Shown: positions 3,251 to 54,807 of the stretch, one piece after another
Position numbering within the stretch: position 1 is the first letter of the stretch
Layout: each line of letters begins with the position of its first letter
From: Bacteroidales bacterium
GTDB taxonomy: Bacteria; Bacteroidota; Bacteroidia; Bacteroidales; UBA3663
DNA: 64,000 nt
NCBI GenBank assembly: GCA_017618715.1
Contig: JAFZTS010000026.1
Location: forward strand, 1 to 64,000
Direction: 5' to 3'
Position numbers and translations under genes: made by a program
The notes under the pieces: model-generated
Databases searched by the model: none
Seen by the model: only the letters and a program-made list of their open reading frames with translations
Told to the model about the DNA's origin: nothing

Positions 3251-4768
3251 ATGCGAATTGCCGGTCTGTTCCTTATGTTGATTACTATGCCTGTGCTTTC
3301 CCAGACGCTCACCGAGGGTCTGGAACAGACGTATGAGTTGCAGATGTCGGCAAGTACGGACAAGACTCCTCTTTGGCTGAATGCCAATCGTTACGGACTA
3401 AGTTCTCTTAGTTCGACGAATGGTTATGTGCGAAGTCGGTTGGAGCGTCCCCTTGTTGTTGATACAGATAAGGAGTGGGGTATGGGTTATGGCATTGATC
3501 TGGCTATCCCGTTGCAATACACCAGCGATTTCGTCATTCAACAGTGTTATGCAGAAGTACGCTACAAACGCGGCATTCTTACGTTCGGACAGAAACAGCA
3601 GCCCATGCAACTGAAGGACATGGAACTCAGCAGCGGCTCTCAGACTTTTGGCATCAATGCCCGACCGATACCGGAAGTGCGTCTCTCGTTCCCCGCCTAC
3701 TGGAATATCCCTGGTCTTGGAGGTTGGCTGGCCATCAAAGGTCATTTCTCCTACGGCTGGATGACCGATAGTCGTTTTCAGGAAGATTGGACACAAGGGA
3801 AACCGCATTATTCCAAGGACGTACGTTATCATAGCAAGTCGGGCTATATGCGCATCGGTCCTGCCGACGAGGATCATCCGCTCAGTCTGGAACTTGGATT
3901 GGAGATGGCATGTGAATTCGGAGGTGAGCTCCATTTGTCATCATCGAAAACTTTGGAGGTGGGCAAGGGTTTCAAGGACTATGTAGATGCCTTCTTTGCT
4001 ACTGGTGACGATGAAGTAGATGAGATTTATACGAATGTGGGCGGTGACCACTTGGGCAGTTGGGTCGCTCGTCTCAACTATAGTGACGAAGACATGAGCT
4101 TTGCCGTTTATGCCGACCATTACTTTGAGGACCATTCGGCCATGTTCTTTCTCGATTACGATGGATATGGCTCAGGACAGGATTGGGACAACCGCAAGAA
4201 GAACCGTTACCTGCTCTATCCCCTCAAGGATATCATGCTGGGTGCTGAGTTGAAACTAAAGGATTCCCGTTGGATGGATGCCTTGGTTGTCGAATTCCTG
4301 AACACGCGTTATCAAAGTGGCCCTATCTATCACGACCACAATCCGGGCATGAACGACCATATCGGAGGCGGCGACAACTACTACAATCATCGCCTCTATC
4401 CAGGGTGGTCCCATTGGGGTCAGGTGATGGGAAATCCGCTCTATCGTTCGCCAATCTATAACGAGGATGAATCGCTTTCCATCAAGGACAATCGTTTTAC
4501 GGCTTGGCACGTCGGCCTTGCGGGCAGTCCGATGACCGGTTTGCGCTATCGTTTGTTGGCTTCGTGGCAGGAAGGATTGGGCACGTATGGCGCTCCCTTC
4601 CTTGAGCCTCAACGCAACCTCAGCCTGCTTGCCGAGGCCACCTATCGATTCCCGGGAGACGGTTTTTGGGGACATTTCTGCCTGCGTGCAGGCGTCGGCT
4701 ATGACCACGGCGAGCTTCTTGGTAACAATCTGGGCACGCAGTGGACTATTATATATAATATAAGGTAA
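3251..4768 (+). CDS. Capsule assembly Wzi-family outer-membrane protein
   Basis: About 505 residues from the ATG at 3251, which starts a signal peptide (MRIAGLFLMLITMPVLSQ). An in-frame ATG at 3191 would place 20 polar residues before it and lies inside the previous gene, so 3251 is preferred. The mature protein has the alternating pattern and aromatic girdle of an outer-membrane beta barrel, with family-like stretches TPLWLNANRYGLSS, FGQKQQPMQLKD and a C-terminal strand ending in YNIR. Wzi proteins anchor capsular or surface polysaccharide; in Bacteroidetes the family is found widely, often away from capsule loci. Here it follows the FtsB-like and membrane genes as the third cistron. A 9-bp tandem array follows the stop. 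Confidence 0.82.
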   Translation: MRIAGLFLMLITMPVLSQTLTEGLEQTYELQMSASTDKTPLWLNANRYGLSSLSSTNGYVRSRLERPLVVDTDKEWGMGYGIDLAIPLQYTSDFVIQQCYAEVRYKRGILTFGQKQQPMQLKDMELSSGSQTFGINARPIPEVRLSFPAYWNIPGLGGWLAIKGHFSYGWMTDSRFQEDWTQGKPHYSKDVRYHSKSGYMRIGPADEDHPLSLELGLEMACEFGGELHLSSSKTLEVGKGFKDYVDAFFATGDDEVDEIYTNVGGDHLGSWVARLNYSDEDMSFAVYADHYFEDHSAMFFLDYDGYGSGQDWDNRKKNRYLLYPLKDIMLGAELKLKDSRWMDALVVEFLNTRYQSGPIYHDHNPGMNDHIGGGDNYYNHRLYPGWSHWGQVMGNPLYRSPIYNEDESLSIKDNRFTAWHVGLAGSPMTGLRYRLLASWQEGLGTYGAPFLEPQRNLSLLAEATYRFPGDGFWGHFCLRAGVGYDHGELLGNNLGTQWTIIYNIR

Positions 4769-4775
4769 TAGAAAT

Positions 4776-4838
4776 TATAGTCACTATAGTATTTATAGTC
4801 ACTATAGTTACTATAGTAAATATAGTCACTATAGCGGC
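4776..4838. repeat. 9-bp tandem array, TATAG type (7 units)
   Basis: Units in order are TATAGTCAC, TATAGTATT, TATAGTCAC, TATAGTTAC, TATAGTAAA, TATAGTCAC and TATAGCGGC. The first five bases are invariant and the last four vary, with no loss of register. It starts 7 bases after the Wzi-like stop codon and ends 21 bases before the next start codon. Confidence 0.95.
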
Positions 4839-4859
4839 TAAATCGAATAAAAAACAAAA

Positions 4860-17905: not shown

Positions 17906-17919
17906 GGTTTCTGGAGATA

Positions 17920-17991
17920 TCTAGACTGTCTAGGCTCTCTAGTTCTTCTAGATTTTCTAGTCTTTCTAGATTATCTAGATCTTCTATAAAA
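17920..17991. repeat. 9-bp tandem array, TCTAG type (8 units)
   Basis: Units: TCTAGACTG, TCTAGGCTC, TCTAGTTCT, TCTAGATTT, TCTAGTCTT, TCTAGATTA, TCTAGATCT and a decayed TCTATAAAA. The core is fixed and the tail variable. It begins 14 bases after the GH10 stop and ends just before the terminator hairpin. Confidence 0.95.
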
Positions 17992-20276: not shown

Positions 20277-20349
20277 CACCGTATTTATCAATCATTCTCA
20301 GTCAACCCGCTATATGCTCCAGCTCCATATTGGCGAGGCTGTTCCCGAC

Positions 20350-20385
20350 TACTCTGAATACTCTGAATACTCCGAATATTCCGAT
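20350..20385. repeat. 9-bp tandem array, TACTC(T/C)GAA type (4 units)
   Basis: Units are TACTCTGAA, TACTCTGAA, TACTCCGAA and TATTCCGAT, in the 5' leader 26 bases before the start codon. The same motif type forms the array at 53718-53798. Confidence 0.92.
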
Positions 20386-39249: not shown

Positions 39250-39621
39250 CTATCCCAACGGGGCATAAAACGCATCCTTGTAATATTCCACCTTCGCTTT
39301 GCCGGAACTGGGGATGACGATGGCAAATATATCGAATCGAACGGGATAGTCGATGTTGCGCGAACGCATGTAATAATCAGCAGCACGCACACATCGCATA
39401 ATCTTTCGTCGGTCTATCGCATCCTCCGGTCTTCCCCAAGTGCCTGACGATCGTGTCTTGACCTCCACGAAGACCATCTCATCGCTTGCGGGATCGTAGG
39501 CGATGATGTCCATTTCATAGGCATGATCCTTCCATCTCGTCTCGAGTATCTGCATGCCTTCTTGACACAGTCGTTCGGAGGCAAGTTCTTCGCCTGCTTG
39601 CCCGAGTTGGTATGATGTCAT
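39250..39621 (-). CDS. YraN/UPF0102-family protein (nuclease-like fold)
   Basis: 123 residues, normal size. Motifs: QLGQAGEELASERLCQEGM, YEMDIIAYDP (acidic residue of the nuclease-like core), VFVEVKTRSSG (E-x-K) and DRRKIMRCVRAADYYM. This PD-(D/E)XK-like arrangement is seen across YraN proteins, whose role in DNA processing is unproven. The start lies about 20 bases after the terminator T-run of the small RNA at 39640-39843, so yraN could also be reached by read-through from that RNA. Confidence 0.9.
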   Translation of the reverse strand: MTSYQLGQAGEELASERLCQEGMQILETRWKDHAYEMDIIAYDPASDEMVFVEVKTRSSGTWGRPEDAIDRRKIMRCVRAADYYMRSRNIDYPVRFDIFAIVIPSSGKAKVEYYKDAFYAPLG

Positions 39622-39638
39622 GATGATGGGGAATATAT

Positions 39639-39843
39639 AAAAAAAGGAAACCGGCTCTCTGGACGTGATGAAACTCCAGTATATAGGTTTTGGGCTGCGG
39701 TCCGCCTCCGTAATCTTTCGAATTCCCGCCGGTGGTACCAGTGTTCGTGGCGTCGTCAGGGTCGATAGCGCGCCTTCAGCATACGCTTCACCCGGTTCTT
39801 GTAATTAATCGATGAGTTTCCCGCTCTACATATCCGGTTTCCC
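39639..39843 (-). ncRNA. Probable structured small RNA with own promoter and terminator
   Basis: A 200-base transcript unit is inferred. The ends pair: GGAAACCGG at the 5' side (39842-39834) matches CCGGTTTCC at the 3' side (39654-39646), followed at once by seven T. Inside, GAAACTC (39820-39814) pairs with GAGTTTC (39676-39670). Further hairpins are possible (GGGT..AGCG / CGCT..ACCC; CGCC / GGCG), so the RNA is a closed, multi-branched structure. A consensus promoter (TTTG-N20-TATCTTTG) lies directly upstream. No ORF is supported. It does not look like tmRNA, RNase P RNA, SRP RNA or a riboswitch that I know. A 6S-like RNA is possible because of the long closing helix, but the branched middle does not clearly fit. 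Confidence 0.65.
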
Positions 39844-39880: not shown

Positions 39881-40267
39881 TTTTTTGGGAACTTTTTTTG
39901 GTAAATGGGTAAATAACCCCATTTTTCAGCGAAGAAATGCTATCTCAAACCGAAATGGAACGTCCGCTGACGTTGATGCTCTATCTCGTTCGTAGATGGA
40001 ACATCTACGGACGTTTTTGCTCTACTTTATTCGTAGATGGAGCATTTACGGACGTTTTTGCTCTATTTTGTTCGTAGATGGAGCATCTACGGACGTTTTT
40101 GCTCTATTTCGTTCGTAGATGGAGCATTTACGGACGTTTTTGCTCTATTTTGTTCGTAGATGGAGCATCTACGGACGTTTTTGCTCCATTTTGTTCGTAG
40201 ATGGAGCATTTACGGACGTTTTTGCTCCATTTTGTTCGTAGATGGAGCATTTACGGACGTTTTTGCT
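39881..40267. other. Non-coding interval between the small RNA promoter and the AraC-like gene
   Basis: Holds a small hairpin with T-run near 39905-39927 (ATGGG / CCCAT) and the 41-bp repeat array. An ORF on the plus strand (40160-40462) covers the array, but it is repeat-derived and not supported. Confidence 0.75.
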
Positions 40268-40277
40268 CTATTTCCTA
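39951..40277. repeat. Tandem array of 41-bp units (7 clean + 1 decayed), each with two overlapping inverted repeats
   Basis: Units begin with CGTAGATGGA at 39991, 40032, 40073, 40114, 40155, 40196 and 40237, exactly 41 bases apart; a decayed unit covers 39951-39990. Within each, CGTAGATG pairs with CATCTACG or CATTTACG, and ATGGAGCA pairs with TGCTCCAT or TGCTCTAT, and the two stems share bases so only one can form. CATCT and CATTT alternate in units 1-6, which suggests amplification in 82-bp pairs. The array ends at the stop codon of the AraC-like gene. Confidence 0.95.
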
Positions 40278-40762
40278 TTTTTGGTGACGAAACGCAAGGG
40301 TTTGAAGGTAATGCCGTATTTTCTTGCGGTTCTTTGCAGACTTTTGTAGGAATCCCAACCGTAACGGATGGCAATTTCTTCAAGGCTTTTGATGCTGATT
40401 TCCCTTTGGTATGCTTTCTTGCTGTCTTTTGTGAGTTCATAGCCTTCAGGCGCATCTTTTGACTTGCTTTTGACGAAATCCTTGTAGCCTTTGTAGCCTG
40501 CGTATTTGCCATCCCACATTTCCTTGGCTTGCAAGACACGCCAATGGAGGATGAATTCCTTCAGCCTTACTCCTGTCAGCATTTGCACGGCAAAAGTCAG
40601 CGCACGTGGCTCCACGTTGAGCAGCAAGGCGATATCCTCCGATCGGTGCGTCTTGGAGTTGCGTATAGCGTCAATGACGGCATCAATGATAAGTTCTCCG
40701 GTAGGTTCCCCCTTTCTGTTGTAGAGTTCCTCAAGATTCGTGAATTGTTGGATGTTTGTCAT
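40268..40762 (-). CDS. AraC-like helix-turn-helix regulator with a split DNA-binding domain
   Basis: 164 residues, no signal peptide. The first AraC-type helix-turn-helix (EDIALLLNVEPRALTFAVQM) and the second (SLEEIAIRYGWDSYKSLQRT) are both recognisable, but about 45 residues rich in Lys and Tyr separate them, more than the usual single linker helix. There is no ligand-binding domain. It is the last gene of the long minus-strand run and starts 31 bases after the DUF5703 stop, so it may be co-transcribed and act as an autoregulator of that cluster. The stop codon lies in the final 41-bp repeat unit. Assignment to AraC rests on motif resemblance. Confidence 0.65.
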   Translation of the reverse strand: MTNIQQFTNLEELYNRKGEPTGELIIDAVIDAIRNSKTHRSEDIALLLNVEPRALTFAVQMLTGVRLKEFILHWRVLQAKEMWDGKYAGYKGYKDFVKSKSKDAPEGYELTKDSKKAYQREISIKSLEEIAIRYGWDSYKSLQRTARKYGITFKPLRFVTKNRK

Positions 40763-40792: not shown

Positions 40793-43144
40793 TTAATTAT
40801 CACTCAATCTACTTGAATCACATTCGACGATTCGACCGTCTGTGGCGTATAGTTTGAAGCGGATATATTTGTCCTTGGGCCAGGCGGGGAAAAGGATGGG
40901 TTCGCCTGTCTCCGGGTCTTCCTGCAAGAGCATCTCTTCGAGGCCGATAAGTGCTGAGCCGCCCCAGTTGTGGTCGGGACTCCAATCGAAGCCAGGTCCC
41001 CAGAATGCGGGGAACCGGTAGGGACCATCCTTGAGTTTCTCCATGGTGAGCTGATATGCCTCGTCAGCAAGGCCGAGACATGCTGCCCAGATGTTGTCCT
41101 GCTTCCAGCCTTTCGACGAACGATGGGCGAGGGCCACCGAGTCGCATTGGTAGGTGTTCAAGGCAAGTTCGTTGGCCGTGTATTCGCCGCGCTCGTCTTT
41201 CTCAAGCCCGTAGATACGCCAAGGCCAAACGGGATAGAGCTGCGGCGTTTCGACGTTGTTGATACGCTCGTAAGCGATGGCGGGGGCGATGCATGGCTTT
41301 CCCTGCTGCAATCTTGTGGGGATAGGCGGGATGCGCTTGGCCAGCGTCTTGAGATAGTTGAGATGTGTCGTGTCGTTTGATTCCTCCATGTAGCGGATGC
41401 AATCGTGCGTGACGCGTTGCAAGGCTGCGATGGTGCTCGATGAGTTGTAGGTCATCTTATAGGTCTCGCAACCTGAGCCAGGATAGAGAATGAGGTGACC
41501 GTTCGCATCCAGCCCCCCGTTCCTATGGCCGCGCTGACGTGCCAGGTAACGATAGTGCTCGTCGAAGAATCGGAGACAGGAGACAATCAAAGGGGAGTAT
41601 TTCTCTAGTGGGAAATTTCTTGAAAATCTGGAATCTCTAGATGATTTAGAATCGAATGACATATCATATCGCCAGGCTTCCAGGGCCATTTGACAGAATT
41701 CGAGGACGGTGTCCCATTCGTATTCGAGCCAAGCATTGTATTCGAGTCCAGGATCAAAACCTGCGGGGCGTTTCTGCCCGTATTCGGCGGTATTGGGCAG
41801 GCCGAAGTTCTCTATCTGTTCGGTGAAGCATGCTCCTTTGTGGTTCCAATAGGCACGACTGCGGATTTCTGCGTTGTGCAGTAGTGTTGTGTAGAAGTCG
41901 AGTTGTGTTTGTAGCAGGTCGTAGTCGCCGCTCTTCAGCATGCCCCAATAGACGAGGCGCTGGTTTTGGGCGGTGAAGGTGCCACCGCCCCATTTGCGGA
42001 AATCGGGCGTGGGGTGGAACTTTCCAGCTACGAAGTTGGCCCAATTGGTGCTATCGACTTCGAGGGGATCGAAGGCGAAGAGTCCTCCGTTGAATTTGGT
42101 GGGGTATTCGCCTCCGTAATTGCAGCCGAGCATATAGCGGAACAGCGTCACGTTGCGAAGGGCATCAGTGAGCTGAGCATCGCTGCCGTCGGTCTCGAAG
42201 AGGCAGCGGTTCATGTACTGCTTCCACCAGGCCTGGCTGGCCTCCTTGTCGTTCTTCAGCTGGACGGATTTTTGCGTCGCTGCTATGGTTTGCCTCCATT
42301 CGTCGAGCGATGACTGCTGGGTACAGAGGGTTATCTGGAAATGATGGTGTCGGGCCATGCCCTTGGCCGAACGGTAATCCCACTGGTGGTAGGCTCTGCC
42401 GTATGCGTCGTGAAGAGTTGATGAGTTCGTGTGTTGGTGAGCTGGTGTGTTTATGGTGCCGCCTGTCAATATTCCTCCGAAGATGCGGTCGCGAAGGGGG
42501 TTGTAGAGGCTGTCGTACCATGCACCAAGCTGTTGGTCGTGCACAGTATATTCGAACACGGTCGTGCTGCGATTCTGGTGGAAGAAGGTGAGTTGCGAGG
42601 GTGCGGCTTCGATGCTGTCGCGGCGCGTGACGATGCGTTTGGGGTCGGCTTGCTTGGGGACGAGCCATTTCCAGCTCGACTGCTGTCCTTCGGCCTGCGA
42701 GAACGCTTCATCGTGGGTGCGCCAGCTCTGATAGCTCAGGACGGGGAGCATCTTTTGCTTCGCATCCACTTCGACATGCACGACGGGTTTGAAGACATCG
42801 CACCAAAGGGTGACCGTCACATCACCTTGCGAGAGTGTCATGGCTCCGGTCTCGAGATGTAGCGTTTGCGCGAAATCGTCGGCTTTCCACTCAGGGAAGG
42901 CATTCAACGCAAAGCGTCCCAGCTTCAGCATCGAGTTGTTCTCGTCGAACGTGCCGGATTGGGAAAGGTAGAAACGGATGGTTCCCTCGGCATCGCACCA
43001 CACATTGAGCCCCACACCGCCACCGCCTACGGGCATCGACCCGGCCGAGTTGGTCGAAGGCGTTGTCCATGAATATGTCGTTGTCCTACCTGTCGCTGTT
43101 GTGGCAAGCAGGAACAAACAGAGAAATAGAGTTCTTTTTAACAT
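40793..43144 (-). CDS. DUF5703-domain secreted glycoside-hydrolase-like protein
   Basis: 783 residues. Signal peptide MLKRTLFLCLFLLATTATG. The N-terminal domain begins YSWTTPSTNSAGSMPVGGGGVGLNVW and IRFYLSQSGTFDENNSMLKL (shown in part), close to the DUF5703 signature; the rest forms an (alpha/alpha)6-type toroid with FNGGLFAFD, PDHNWGGSALIGLEEML and related helices. Members sit in glycan loci and are presumed glycosidases; substrate and catalytic residues are not known. Unusual: codons at about 41611-41646 form a 9-bp-periodic stretch giving SRD, SRF, SRN triplets. It lies between GH2 and the AraC-like gene. Confidence 0.8.
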   Translation of the reverse strand: MLKRTLFLCLFLLATTATGRTTTYSWTTPSTNSAGSMPVGGGGVGLNVWCDAEGTIRFYLSQSGTFDENNSMLKLGRFALNAFPEWKADDFAQTLHLETGAMTLSQGDVTVTLWCDVFKPVVHVEVDAKQKMLPVLSYQSWRTHDEAFSQAEGQQSSWKWLVPKQADPKRIVTRRDSIEAAPSQLTFFHQNRSTTVFEYTVHDQQLGAWYDSLYNPLRDRIFGGILTGGTINTPAHQHTNSSTLHDAYGRAYHQWDYRSAKGMARHHHFQITLCTQQSSLDEWRQTIAATQKSVQLKNDKEASQAWWKQYMNRCLFETDGSDAQLTDALRNVTLFRYMLGCNYGGEYPTKFNGGLFAFDPLEVDSTNWANFVAGKFHPTPDFRKWGGGTFTAQNQRLVYWGMLKSGDYDLLQTQLDFYTTLLHNAEIRSRAYWNHKGACFTEQIENFGLPNTAEYGQKRPAGFDPGLEYNAWLEYEWDTVLEFCQMALEAWRYDMSFDSKSSRDSRFSRNFPLEKYSPLIVSCLRFFDEHYRYLARQRGHRNGGLDANGHLILYPGSGCETYKMTYNSSSTIAALQRVTHDCIRYMEESNDTTHLNYLKTLAKRIPPIPTRLQQGKPCIAPAIAYERINNVETPQLYPVWPWRIYGLEKDERGEYTANELALNTYQCDSVALAHRSSKGWKQDNIWAACLGLADEAYQLTMEKLKDGPYRFPAFWGPGFDWSPDHNWGGSALIGLEEMLLQEDPETGEPILFPAWPKDKYIRFKLYATDGRIVECDSSRLSDN
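41611..41646. repeat. Degenerate in-frame 9-bp array in the DUF5703 gene
   Basis: On the minus strand, TCTAGAGAT, TCCAGATTT and TCAAGAAAT follow each other in register, coding for SRD, SRF and SRN. Flanking units are decayed. The core TCTAGA is that of the TCTAG-type arrays. Confidence 0.6.
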
Positions 43145-43212: not shown

Positions 43213-46637
<3,425 letters not shown>

Positions 46638-48946: not shown

Positions 48947-48959
48947 ATTGGGGGGGCTC

Positions 48960-49022
48960 TCTAGATTCTCTAGGTTTTCTAGATTTTCTAGATATTCTAG
49001 GTTTTCTAGGTTCTCTAGATTC
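48960..49022. repeat. 9-bp tandem array, TCTAG type (7 units)
   Basis: Units TCTAGATTC, TCTAGGTTT, TCTAGATTT, TCTAGATAT, TCTAGGTTT, TCTAGGTTC, TCTAGATTC. It fills nearly all of the gap between the Fe-dehydrogenase stop (49021-49023) and the PdxA-like ATG (48946). Read on the minus strand from a TTG it gives NLE repeats. Confidence 0.95.
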
Positions 49023-52863: not shown

Positions 52864-53748
52864 ATGAAAGGAACAAGAAATAACGGTATTGTGCTCGAAG
52901 GAGGAGGCTTGCGAGGCATGTTCACCTGCGGTGTGCTTGATGTCATGATGGACAATGGCATCACTTTTGATGGCGCTATCGGGGTGTCTGCAGGTGCTGC
53001 TTTCGGCGTCAATATCAAGTCGGGTCAGCGTGGACGTGCACTTCGCTACAATCTTCAGATGGCGGGCGACAAGCGCTATATGAGCCTACGCTCGCTAATA
53101 TTCACAGGCAATTTGTTCAATGCGGAGTTTTGTTATCACACCGTGCCTTGTGAGATAGACATTTTCGACAAGGAGGCCTTCGCCCGCAACCCGATGGAAT
53201 TCATTGCAGTTTGCACCGACGTGCAGACCGGAGAGCCTGTCTATCACGTCATGGATCATATCGACTACGATGAATTGGAATGGATACGCGCCTCAGCTTC
53301 CCTTCCCCTTGTGGCACAACCGGTGCATGTGGGCGGGTATGTGCTGCTTGACGGAGGGCTGACCGATTCCATCCCGCTTAAGTTCATGCAGGAACATGGT
53401 TATGTGCGAAATATTACGGTGCTGACGCAACCTTTGGGCTATCGAAAGACATTATCGAAGCACATGGGCCTGATAAAGTTCGTAACTCGGAAGTATCCCA
53501 AGGTGTATGAATGCCTTCTCCGTCGTCCCGATATGTACAACAGCCAGCTCGACTATGTGTTGAATGAAGCAGCACAGGGCAGGACGTTAATCATCGCTCC
53601 ACCCGAAAGACTCGATGTGGGGCGCGTGGAGATGAAACGGGAAAAATTGCAGAAAGTTTATGATGAAGGACGTAGGGTTTGTGAGACGATGTTGCCGGAG
53701 ATCAGGGAGTATTTGGGACAATCGGAGTACTCGGAGTACTCGGAATGA
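52864..53748 (+). CDS. Patatin-like phospholipase family protein
   Basis: 294 residues, cytosolic (no signal). Motifs: GIVLEGGGLRGMFTCGVLD (oxyanion-hole glycines near residue 13), IGVSAGAAFG (GxSxG nucleophile Ser) and VLLDGGLTDSIPLK (Asp of the Ser-Asp dyad). Such proteins hydrolyse phospholipids or lysolipids. The start at 52864 is the only one that keeps the GGGLRG loop. Last residues EYSEYSE are encoded by the 9-bp array that begins before the stop. The gene appears to have its own, possibly leaderless, promoter. Divergent from the lyase operon. Confidence 0.93.
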   Translation: MKGTRNNGIVLEGGGLRGMFTCGVLDVMMDNGITFDGAIGVSAGAAFGVNIKSGQRGRALRYNLQMAGDKRYMSLRSLIFTGNLFNAEFCYHTVPCEIDIFDKEAFARNPMEFIAVCTDVQTGEPVYHVMDHIDYDELEWIRASASLPLVAQPVHVGGYVLLDGGLTDSIPLKFMQEHGYVRNITVLTQPLGYRKTLSKHMGLIKFVTRKYPKVYECLLRRPDMYNSQLDYVLNEAAQGRTLIIAPPERLDVGRVEMKREKLQKVYDEGRRVCETMLPEIREYLGQSEYSEYSE

Positions 53749-53798
53749 TCGGAGTCCTCGGAGTGCTCTGAATACTCTGAGTACTCTGATTACTCAGA
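53718..53798. repeat. 9-bp tandem array, TACTC(G/T)GAG type (9 units), spanning two convergent stop codons
   Basis: Consecutive units ACAATCGGA, GTACTCGGA, GTACTCGGA, ATGATCGGA, GTCCTCGGA, GTGCTCTGA, ATACTCTGA, GTACTCTGA, TTACTCAGA. The patatin stop lies at 53746-53748 and the DUF4421 stop at 53794-53796, both within the array. Confidence 0.95.
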
Positions 53799-54807
53799 AT
53801 CTTATTCCGTAGTAGATGCGTCCTTTCCAGTAGGTGTTTTGAATGGAGAATTCGTCGCTGTTTCCGACACGGTATGTTTGCAGGACTCCCATGAGTCCGA
53901 TGTAATAGTGTCCGCGTGAGTAGATGGCACCTACGCGGCTCAGGAAATAGAGCTGCGCGTTCTGGATGGGCAGACGGTTGCTGATGGTTTCTCCCGTGGT
54001 GGGATCTTTTTCGACTCGCAGGGTGTAGTTTTTCCAAATCATGAATGTGGGCTGCGCTGAGAAGTGCAGGAGCCAATGGTATTGGGTCACGTAATTGTAG
54101 GCATAACCTCCTCCTATTGCTGCGTGCCTCATGGTGATGCTCGGGTCGTTGGGCATGTTGTATTTCGTTTCACTGATTTTGCCCGAGAGCGAACCATTGT
54201 AGAGTGTGGCGGCAGCTATCACGCTGCCTGCCGAACGCTTTTGGATCATTGTGTTGTTGAAGGCTGCGGGATAGGAAAACTTGCGTCCATTGAAGACAAA
54301 ATAGGCGTTGACCGACATGCCGTAGAGACGTGTGCTTTCGATTTTTGCCCTTGAAGGCACCCGTCCAATCTTGATTTCGGTGTCGAAGTCGCTGATGTTG
54401 GTGAAGGTCACGTCGGCGCCCCACCAGTTGTTGTAGAAGTTGATGTTGTATTCCTGATCCGAGGTCTTGTGAAACAGGCGACGTGGGGCAAACGAGATAG
54501 TTAGACCGATACCTTTGTAAGAAGCCGAGATGCCGATTGTAGAACGCAAGGCGGAGCTCATCCTGATCGTCATCATCTCATTGTCCTCCATCATGTTGTG
54601 AATGTTCAGGTTGCTTCCGAAACCATCGTAACGTACCTTTGCAATCCAGTTCTGGCGGGGAAGTCTTACGAAGGCGGTGTCGGTATTTATCTTTTTTTGG
54701 CGTACGGTGAGCAGGCTATCCAGACGATGCCAGAACTGCGCCTCGGCGGGAACTGGGGCGCAGCAGATCGTAATGAGAATGATGAGAATTTTTCCTAATC
54801 CTTTCAT
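53794..54807 (-). CDS. DUF4421-family outer-membrane protein
   Basis: 337 residues. A signal peptide ends PAEAQ. The mature part alternates short hydrophobic and polar strands with many aromatics, consistent with a small outer-membrane barrel ending in the aromatic GRIYYGIRF. The overall pattern (FVRLPRQNWIAKVRYDGFGS, GLTISFAPRRLF, NFYNNWWGADVTF) matches DUF4421 proteins of Bacteroidales. Function is unknown. The gene is convergent with patatin, and its stop is in the repeat array. It is followed upstream by the HAD gene on the same strand, 42 bases apart. Confidence 0.78.
   Translation of the reverse strand: MKGLGKILIILITICCAPVPAEAQFWHRLDSLLTVRQKKINTDTAFVRLPRQNWIAKVRYDGFGSNLNIHNMMEDNEMMTIRMSSALRSTIGISASYKGIGLTISFAPRRLFHKTSDQEYNINFYNNWWGADVTFTNISDFDTEIKIGRVPSRAKIESTRLYGMSVNAYFVFNGRKFSYPAAFNNTMIQKRSAGSVIAAATLYNGSLSGKISETKYNMPNDPSITMRHAAIGGGYAYNYVTQYHWLLHFSAQPTFMIWKNYTLRVEKDPTTGETISNRLPIQNAQLYFLSRVGAIYSRGHYYIGLMGVLQTYRVGNSDEFSIQNTYWKGRIYYGIRF

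Follow-up and report, generated by a model that had tools for sequence, protein, structure and literature searches.

Within the window analysed here, a 64,000-nucleotide stretch of a contig from a Bacteroidales bacterium, a tandem array of 41-bp units lies between the gene for a small AraC-type DNA-binding protein and a 6S-like RNA. The neighbourhood of the array, and the other repeats of the window, are as follows:

39250-39621, minus strand: 123-aa open reading frame within the conserved neighbourhood, which by eye we take to be UPF0102/YraN-like
39644-39839, minus strand: 6S-like RNA (a match to Rfam Bacteroidales-1 that does not reach the curated cut-off); its transcription runs away from the array
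39941-40273, minus strand: S1-class tandem array with a 41-bp period, comprising seven good units (39982-40268) and a degenerate end unit
39990-40011, no strand assigned: the two dyad axes of one unit, as an example (39990.0 and 40010.5)
40268-40762, minus strand: small AraC-type DNA-binding protein, 164 aa, whose stop codon abuts the first unit; the proposed partner of the array
40793-43144, minus strand: 783-aa open reading frame upstream of the AraC-like gene, kept there in all five S1 orthologs
4768-4849, 17918-17986, 20345-20384, 48958-49022 and 53706-53800: repeats with a 9-bp period

An initial annotation of this DNA had described eight units placed exactly 41 bases apart and without spacers, which is a fair account of the array. 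TRF calls it at 39969-40273 (period 41, 7.4 copies, 93% matches, 0% indels, score 512), and finds no other array with a period of 36-46 bp within the 64-kb window; the eighth unit is the degenerate one at 39941-39981 (61%). The units are contiguous, with 0% indels and no spacers, and so do not have the layout of a CRISPR. Read in gene orientation, the S1 unit of the window array is GAGCAAAAACGTCCGTRAATGCTCCATCTACGAACAAAATR, and the stop codon of the AraC-like gene touches the first unit, as had been noted. The pairings that had been quoted are present, in the form of dyads at 40010.5 and 39990.0, which pair ATGGAGCA/TGCTCYAT, and a dyad at 40000.0, which pairs CGTAGATG/CATYTACG and is not among the main dyads of the S1 consensus. 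The two outer dyads are 20.5 bp apart, which is half the period, and hence yield alternating inverted sites every 20.5 bp. The strongest dyad of the window array was reached by 21 of 2000 column shuffles, and the folding z of the array is -9.2 and -12.4 for the two strands. Most sequence changes had been said to keep the pairing through G-U: this is correct for the plus strand, where the G-U pairs sit, but the gene-sense strand has A-C mismatches at those places, and the variable columns are all transitions (7/7). Alternating variants do occur (C/T alternation is present in six of the seven units), but the growth in 82-bp pairs that had been read from them is only weakly supported. The small-RNA promoter reported beside the array belongs to the 6S-like RNA, which matches Bacteroidales-1 with E=1e-6 and 49.3 bits, short of the cut-off of 60, and is likely a divergent member of that family; in two other genomes of the genus (G007 and G003), the orthologous loci likewise have a 6S-like RNA downstream of the array.

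A separate repeat family has a base period of 9 bp (9/18/27; for example, TCTAGATTC and TCGGAGTAC) and is mostly intergenic or found at gene ends. Repeats similar to this family were seen at L015 (4843-4901) and L220 (about 690-770), and an 18-bp period repeat at 45978-46025 of the window lies within a 1123-aa open reading frame, where a repeat may have inserted into a coding gene.

The protein encoded next to the array has two HTH motifs and lacks a sensor domain. In its family, Pfam HTH_18 is found in 16 of 17 aligned members (best 5.7e-18) and HTH_AraC in seven, and the window protein tested alone for these domains scores 21.9 bits, under the cut-off of 33.6. Its relatives in the PDB, found by profile search, include the MarA-DNA (1bl0) and AdpA-DNA (3w6v) structures, and the top Foldseek matches of an AF2 model built from two sequences (modest confidence, pLDDT 74.5) are AraC-type domains, at weak E-values. 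The protein belongs with the AraC/XylS proteins as a DNA-binding domain only, with two HTH motifs, the best PDB matches being AraC-type by both profile and fold. A search of known families returned no specific NCBIfam match for the protein; PADLOC gave a single weak match, in one family member. Members of the family were found in none of 295 genomes of the order outside the genus (E<=1e-12) and none of 395 genomes of the phylum (E<=1e-10), a total sample of about 690 Bacteroidota genomes, and they were not found in viral contigs, plasmids or phages.

The array is a regular companion of this gene family. We counted as family members those scoring over 120 bits, and of the 34 complete members, two that reach a contig end at the stop codon were left out, leaving 32 assessable in six genomes of the genus. 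A 41/42-bp array lies downstream of 31 of these 32, starting at most 186 nt from the stop codon in 30 members and at +837 in one, and only L090 is without a proper array. In the five orthologs of the AraC-like gene, without exception, an array sits at or just past the stop codon, and its paralogs also carry arrays, of different sequence; gene-linked arrays usually contain 7-10 copies of the 41-42-bp unit. By comparison, 0 of 19 lower-scoring AraC homologs (two with under 500 nt of downstream sequence) has an array at its 3' end, and among 44 open reading frames of the window only the AraC-like gene itself has one. The initial annotation had located the array correctly beside an AraC-like gene, but had missed both the link to a gene family and the genome-wide scatter of such arrays.

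At least six array classes can be distinguished (S1-S6, named by array sequence), and array class follows protein subfamily: the distances among proteins and among arrays are correlated (Mantel r=0.81), with 0 of 2000 permutations as high. Gene and array are neighbours with a shared history, so this co-divergence indicates long association and is not proof of contact. Among the 15 genomes of the genus that were searched, those with an S1 gene are the ones with S1 arrays. S1 arrays were detected in the window's genome (G000) and in G003, G004, G007 and G011, each of which has the S1 gene and at least one dispersed copy of the array, and were not found in the other ten genus genomes or in the sampled genomes of the order. 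A search for the 41-bp unit elsewhere in the same genome, as had been proposed, recovered further S1 arrays, related to that of the window, on contigs C45 and C10. Arrays of class S2 are found in G000, G003, G004, G005 and G007, with the S2 gene detected only in G003, G004 and G007, and G005 retains S4 arrays while its S4 gene appears to have been deleted. Incomplete metagenome-assembled genomes (MAGs) may explain some of these mismatches between genes and arrays; the S4 loss at L173 reads, on comparison of the sequences, as natural gene loss. There, compared with G000:C12 (L155), the G005:C12 sequence has lost the bulk of the S4 protein gene together with the region upstream (L155 744-1498) but has kept the array.

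Arrays of classes S6 and S4 are present in many copies per genome, dispersed between genes. The counts per genome are lower bounds, because the genus genomes are incomplete MAGs with many arrays at contig ends, and contigs often break in or beside arrays (G000:C10, G004:C70, G004:C45, G003:C46 and G003:C38, for example). In S1, S4 and S6, arrays are more similar inside one genome than between genomes (p=0.0002), but in S5 they are not (p=0.75). Arrays appear, expand, shrink and get replaced, yet some positions keep one. At the serpin locus, full S1-type arrays are found in G000, G007 and G003, an S2 array in G004, and a single fused unit in G005, a genome without the S1 gene. L176 carries a whole S4 array, about 464 bp long, where the corresponding site of L144 has none, and this junction, the one read closely, shows no clear target-site duplication. 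Likewise, an S6 array of G004 has no counterpart at the orthologous position of G000, G005 or G007, and in L176 an S6 array has collapsed. Arrays are kept at orthologous positions at the DHFR and serpin loci and at L132/L133/L136. We claim no preference for convergent gene pairs, given 24 codirectional, 15 convergent, 8 divergent and 15 undecided pairs under crude calling of open reading frames.

Several further observations concern other arrays. The serpin locus of G011 (L214) holds a different 41-bp array with AGCACAAAAAGTTGAGAAATTGTGCT. Arrays of S4 and S6 are often no more than a few hundred bp apart (G003:C42, C45, C22 and C39; G007:C29; G005:C156). A further array class, marked by TAGTACCATCTCACCGCAATATTGC, is probable at L142 (1930-2143), L149 (1946-2220) and L171 (1996-2268), with no protein gene linked to it here.

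The spacing of the units is almost fixed. Of 655 unit intervals in 102 arrays of the six classes, 182 are 41 bp, 472 are 42 bp and one is 43 bp, which places 654 of 655 (non-independent inside one array, since units copy each other) at 41 or 42 bp, or about four helical turns; some arrays mix the two spacings, and their consensus is rough. Most S1 arrays have a 42-bp period. The dyad of unit A spans 24 bp in this class, and that of unit B encloses a loop of 5 or 6 nt; the length of this loop makes the difference between 41 and 42 bp in most S1 arrays. The best two dyads are exactly 21.0 bp apart in S1, S3, S4 and S6 (example sites of S6 are CCGACAGAGTGCTTGCTCCGA and, inverted, CCGTCAGAGTGCTATTTCCAA), the half-period dyad ranks third in S5, and S2 is without two clean half-period dyads. 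As the dyads are half a period apart, the array in most classes is a run of inverted, alternating sites of about 21 bp. When the strands of 31 gene-linked arrays were folded, the gene-sense strand was better in 13 and the antisense strand in 18 (Wilcoxon p=0.12), and for the window array the better-folding strand is the antisense one. The one-strand selection expected of intrinsic terminators is thus not seen, as there is no strand bias in these 31 arrays. A fixed spacing of 41-42 bp suits the helical phase of DNA better than it suits RNA hairpins and, combined with the lack of strand preference, favours action as DNA. Three options had been offered for the array, of which a binding array for a regulator is the best fit, and the RNA options lack support. 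The AraC-like protein encoded beside the array, to which the annotation had not linked it, is the probable regulator.

We think it rather probable that array and gene form a two-part system specific to this lineage, the array being its DNA component and the AraC-type protein encoded just before it the other component. Within a single group of uncultured Bacteroidales, the linkage of the two and the scatter of related arrays between other genes suggest a protein-plus-DNA-array system not described before; no matching array system was reported in the open-access papers searched. MarA is a monomer when bound to its asymmetric marbox (PMC6900184). By analogy, one molecule of the present protein, with two HTH motifs like MarA, would occupy one asymmetric site of about 20 bp, and each protein would bind its own array class, which is our principal claim. 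Up to about 15-20 molecules could then be arranged along one face of the helix, forming a phased nucleoprotein block. At its own locus, such a block might limit the amount of free protein, and might separate the gene from the promoter of the downstream 6S-like RNA; at dispersed sites between genes, it might be a boundary, a roadblock or an anchor. The purpose that such a complex would serve, whether block, boundary or anchor, we rate as far more doubtful than the binding itself. The fuller proposal is that of a new chromosome system, consisting of a small AraC-type multigene family and own-class, helically phased palindromic arrays, located at the stop codon and scattered elsewhere, whose interchangeable classes serve as boundary or anchor sites; we advance it tentatively, at slightly under an even chance.

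A different reading is that the arrays are selfish or semi-domesticated repeats comparable to REPINs, non-autonomous and spreading, and that the AraC-type protein aids their expansion or movement (for example, by stalling replication forks) and not the cell. The many dispersed copies of S6 and S4, the presence or absence of arrays at matching sites (S4 in L176 versus L144; S6 in G004 versus G000, G005 and G007) and the collapsed arrays (the serpin locus in G005; S6 in L176) would all be expected of such elements, and the S1 gene is syntenic in five genomes, much as RAYT genes are vertically inherited. However, the protein is a DNA-binding domain without a nuclease or recombinase fold, the junction read closely shows no clear target-site duplication, and the persistence of arrays at the orthologous positions named above speaks against mere spread, as does the serpin position, which changed class yet kept an array and so hints at use. 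We regard the selfish reading as unlikely, though worth keeping in view. The arrays could instead act as RNA, transcribed as a 3' UTR or as a separate RNA whose alternative hairpins form a terminator, stabiliser or riboregulator; the terminator/processing element and the repeat-derived RNA that had been offered as options belong here. The site directly past the stop codon would suit a 3' UTR, both strands fold strongly, and in dyad A of S1 the gene-sense strand has G-T pairs over A-C mismatches by 193 to 55. This is nevertheless improbable, since the sense strand is the more stable in only 13 of the 31 linked arrays and the window array shows the reverse, the 41-42-bp spacing is constant over six largely different sequence classes, and no Rfam family scores above its cut-off on the array.

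Tandem arrays can expand and homogenise unaided, and several of the 42-bp arrays (42 bp being 14 codons) are open in some frames, such that a functionless minisatellite or a remnant of coding repeats might be considered. Linkage of 31 of 32 members of one protein family to an array, with co-divergence, is unexpected of a neutral repeat, the 41-bp arrays (the window's included) break frame, and the arrays sit past stop codons; a neutral origin is accordingly very improbable. ToxIN has tandem repeats of about 40 nt beside a small gene, and this resemblance in outline is what counts for a locus of the type III toxin-antitoxin kind, in which the repeats would be antitoxin RNAs and the gene a toxin. 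But the protein here is an AraC-type HTH protein and not an endoribonuclease, and the array is downstream of the gene, is dispersed without it and has no consistent RNA strand bias, which leaves this reading a negligible probability.

Should the proteins bind the arrays, as the two-part system supposes, the two would form a collection of protein-address pairs, several per genome, that had evolved inside a single bacterial group. Genomes would keep, lose or swap such pairs, thereby providing a natural test of co-evolution between DNA-binding proteins and their sites. The system would also bear on the persistence of repeat arrays in compact genomes without a transposase, and on the bacterial use of phased arrays as gene boundaries. 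The case also calls for caution before palindromic repeats are read as RNA structure.

The nearest known kind of system is REPIN-RAYT, in which a vertically inherited gene is accompanied by dispersed palindromic repeats (PMC8049555). The arrays share with REPIN-RAYT and REP/BIME elements (PMC3116915, PMC3733652, PMC8049555) short palindromic intergenic units in many copies and opposite orientations, and a vertically inherited gene that has its own repeats alongside. Unlike in those elements, the gene here encodes an AraC-type DNA-binding domain and not a tyrosine transposase, the arrays consist of about ten phased units of 41-42 bp, and there are several gene/array classes per genome. The RAYT domain (Y1 tyrosine transposase, PF01797) had no match in the window's genome (G000), G003, G004 or G005, and one match of 152-153 aa in each of G007 and G011; RAYT-driven REPs were rejected because four of these six genomes gave no match. 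A REPIN has a palindrome of 20-40 bp that bears an unpaired GTAG or CGTC tag at one end; GTAG and CGTC are present inside S1 units, and the classes showed no shared arrangement of tag plus hairpin. BrickBuilt repeats of Porphyromonas gingivalis, a MITE/minisatellite (PMC4596501), are similar in being spacerless tandem repeats that are intergenic and present in many copies in a member of the Bacteroidales, but have a 23-nt unit and leader and tail segments with inverted-repeat ends; the BrickBuilt abstract names no partner protein gene, whereas the 41-42-bp arrays have a linked gene family. No leader or tail of the BrickBuilt type was found at the S1 array edges examined, and the unit there is 41-42 bp.

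In iteron-Rep and parS-ParB systems, the gene for a DNA-binding protein lies beside phased arrays of its own sites, and the nucleoprotein complex is the working form. Here too a DNA-binding protein gene adjoins phased arrays (of proposed sites), but the fold is AraC-type, the arrays are downstream and dispersed over the chromosome, their sites are inverted and alternating, and no replication or partition genes were noticed nearby. Having two HTH motifs and no sensor domain, the protein resembles AraC proteins of the MarA/SoxS/Rob type; MarA sites are single promoter boxes, whereas each array here has about 15-20 putative sites, at the 3' ends of genes.
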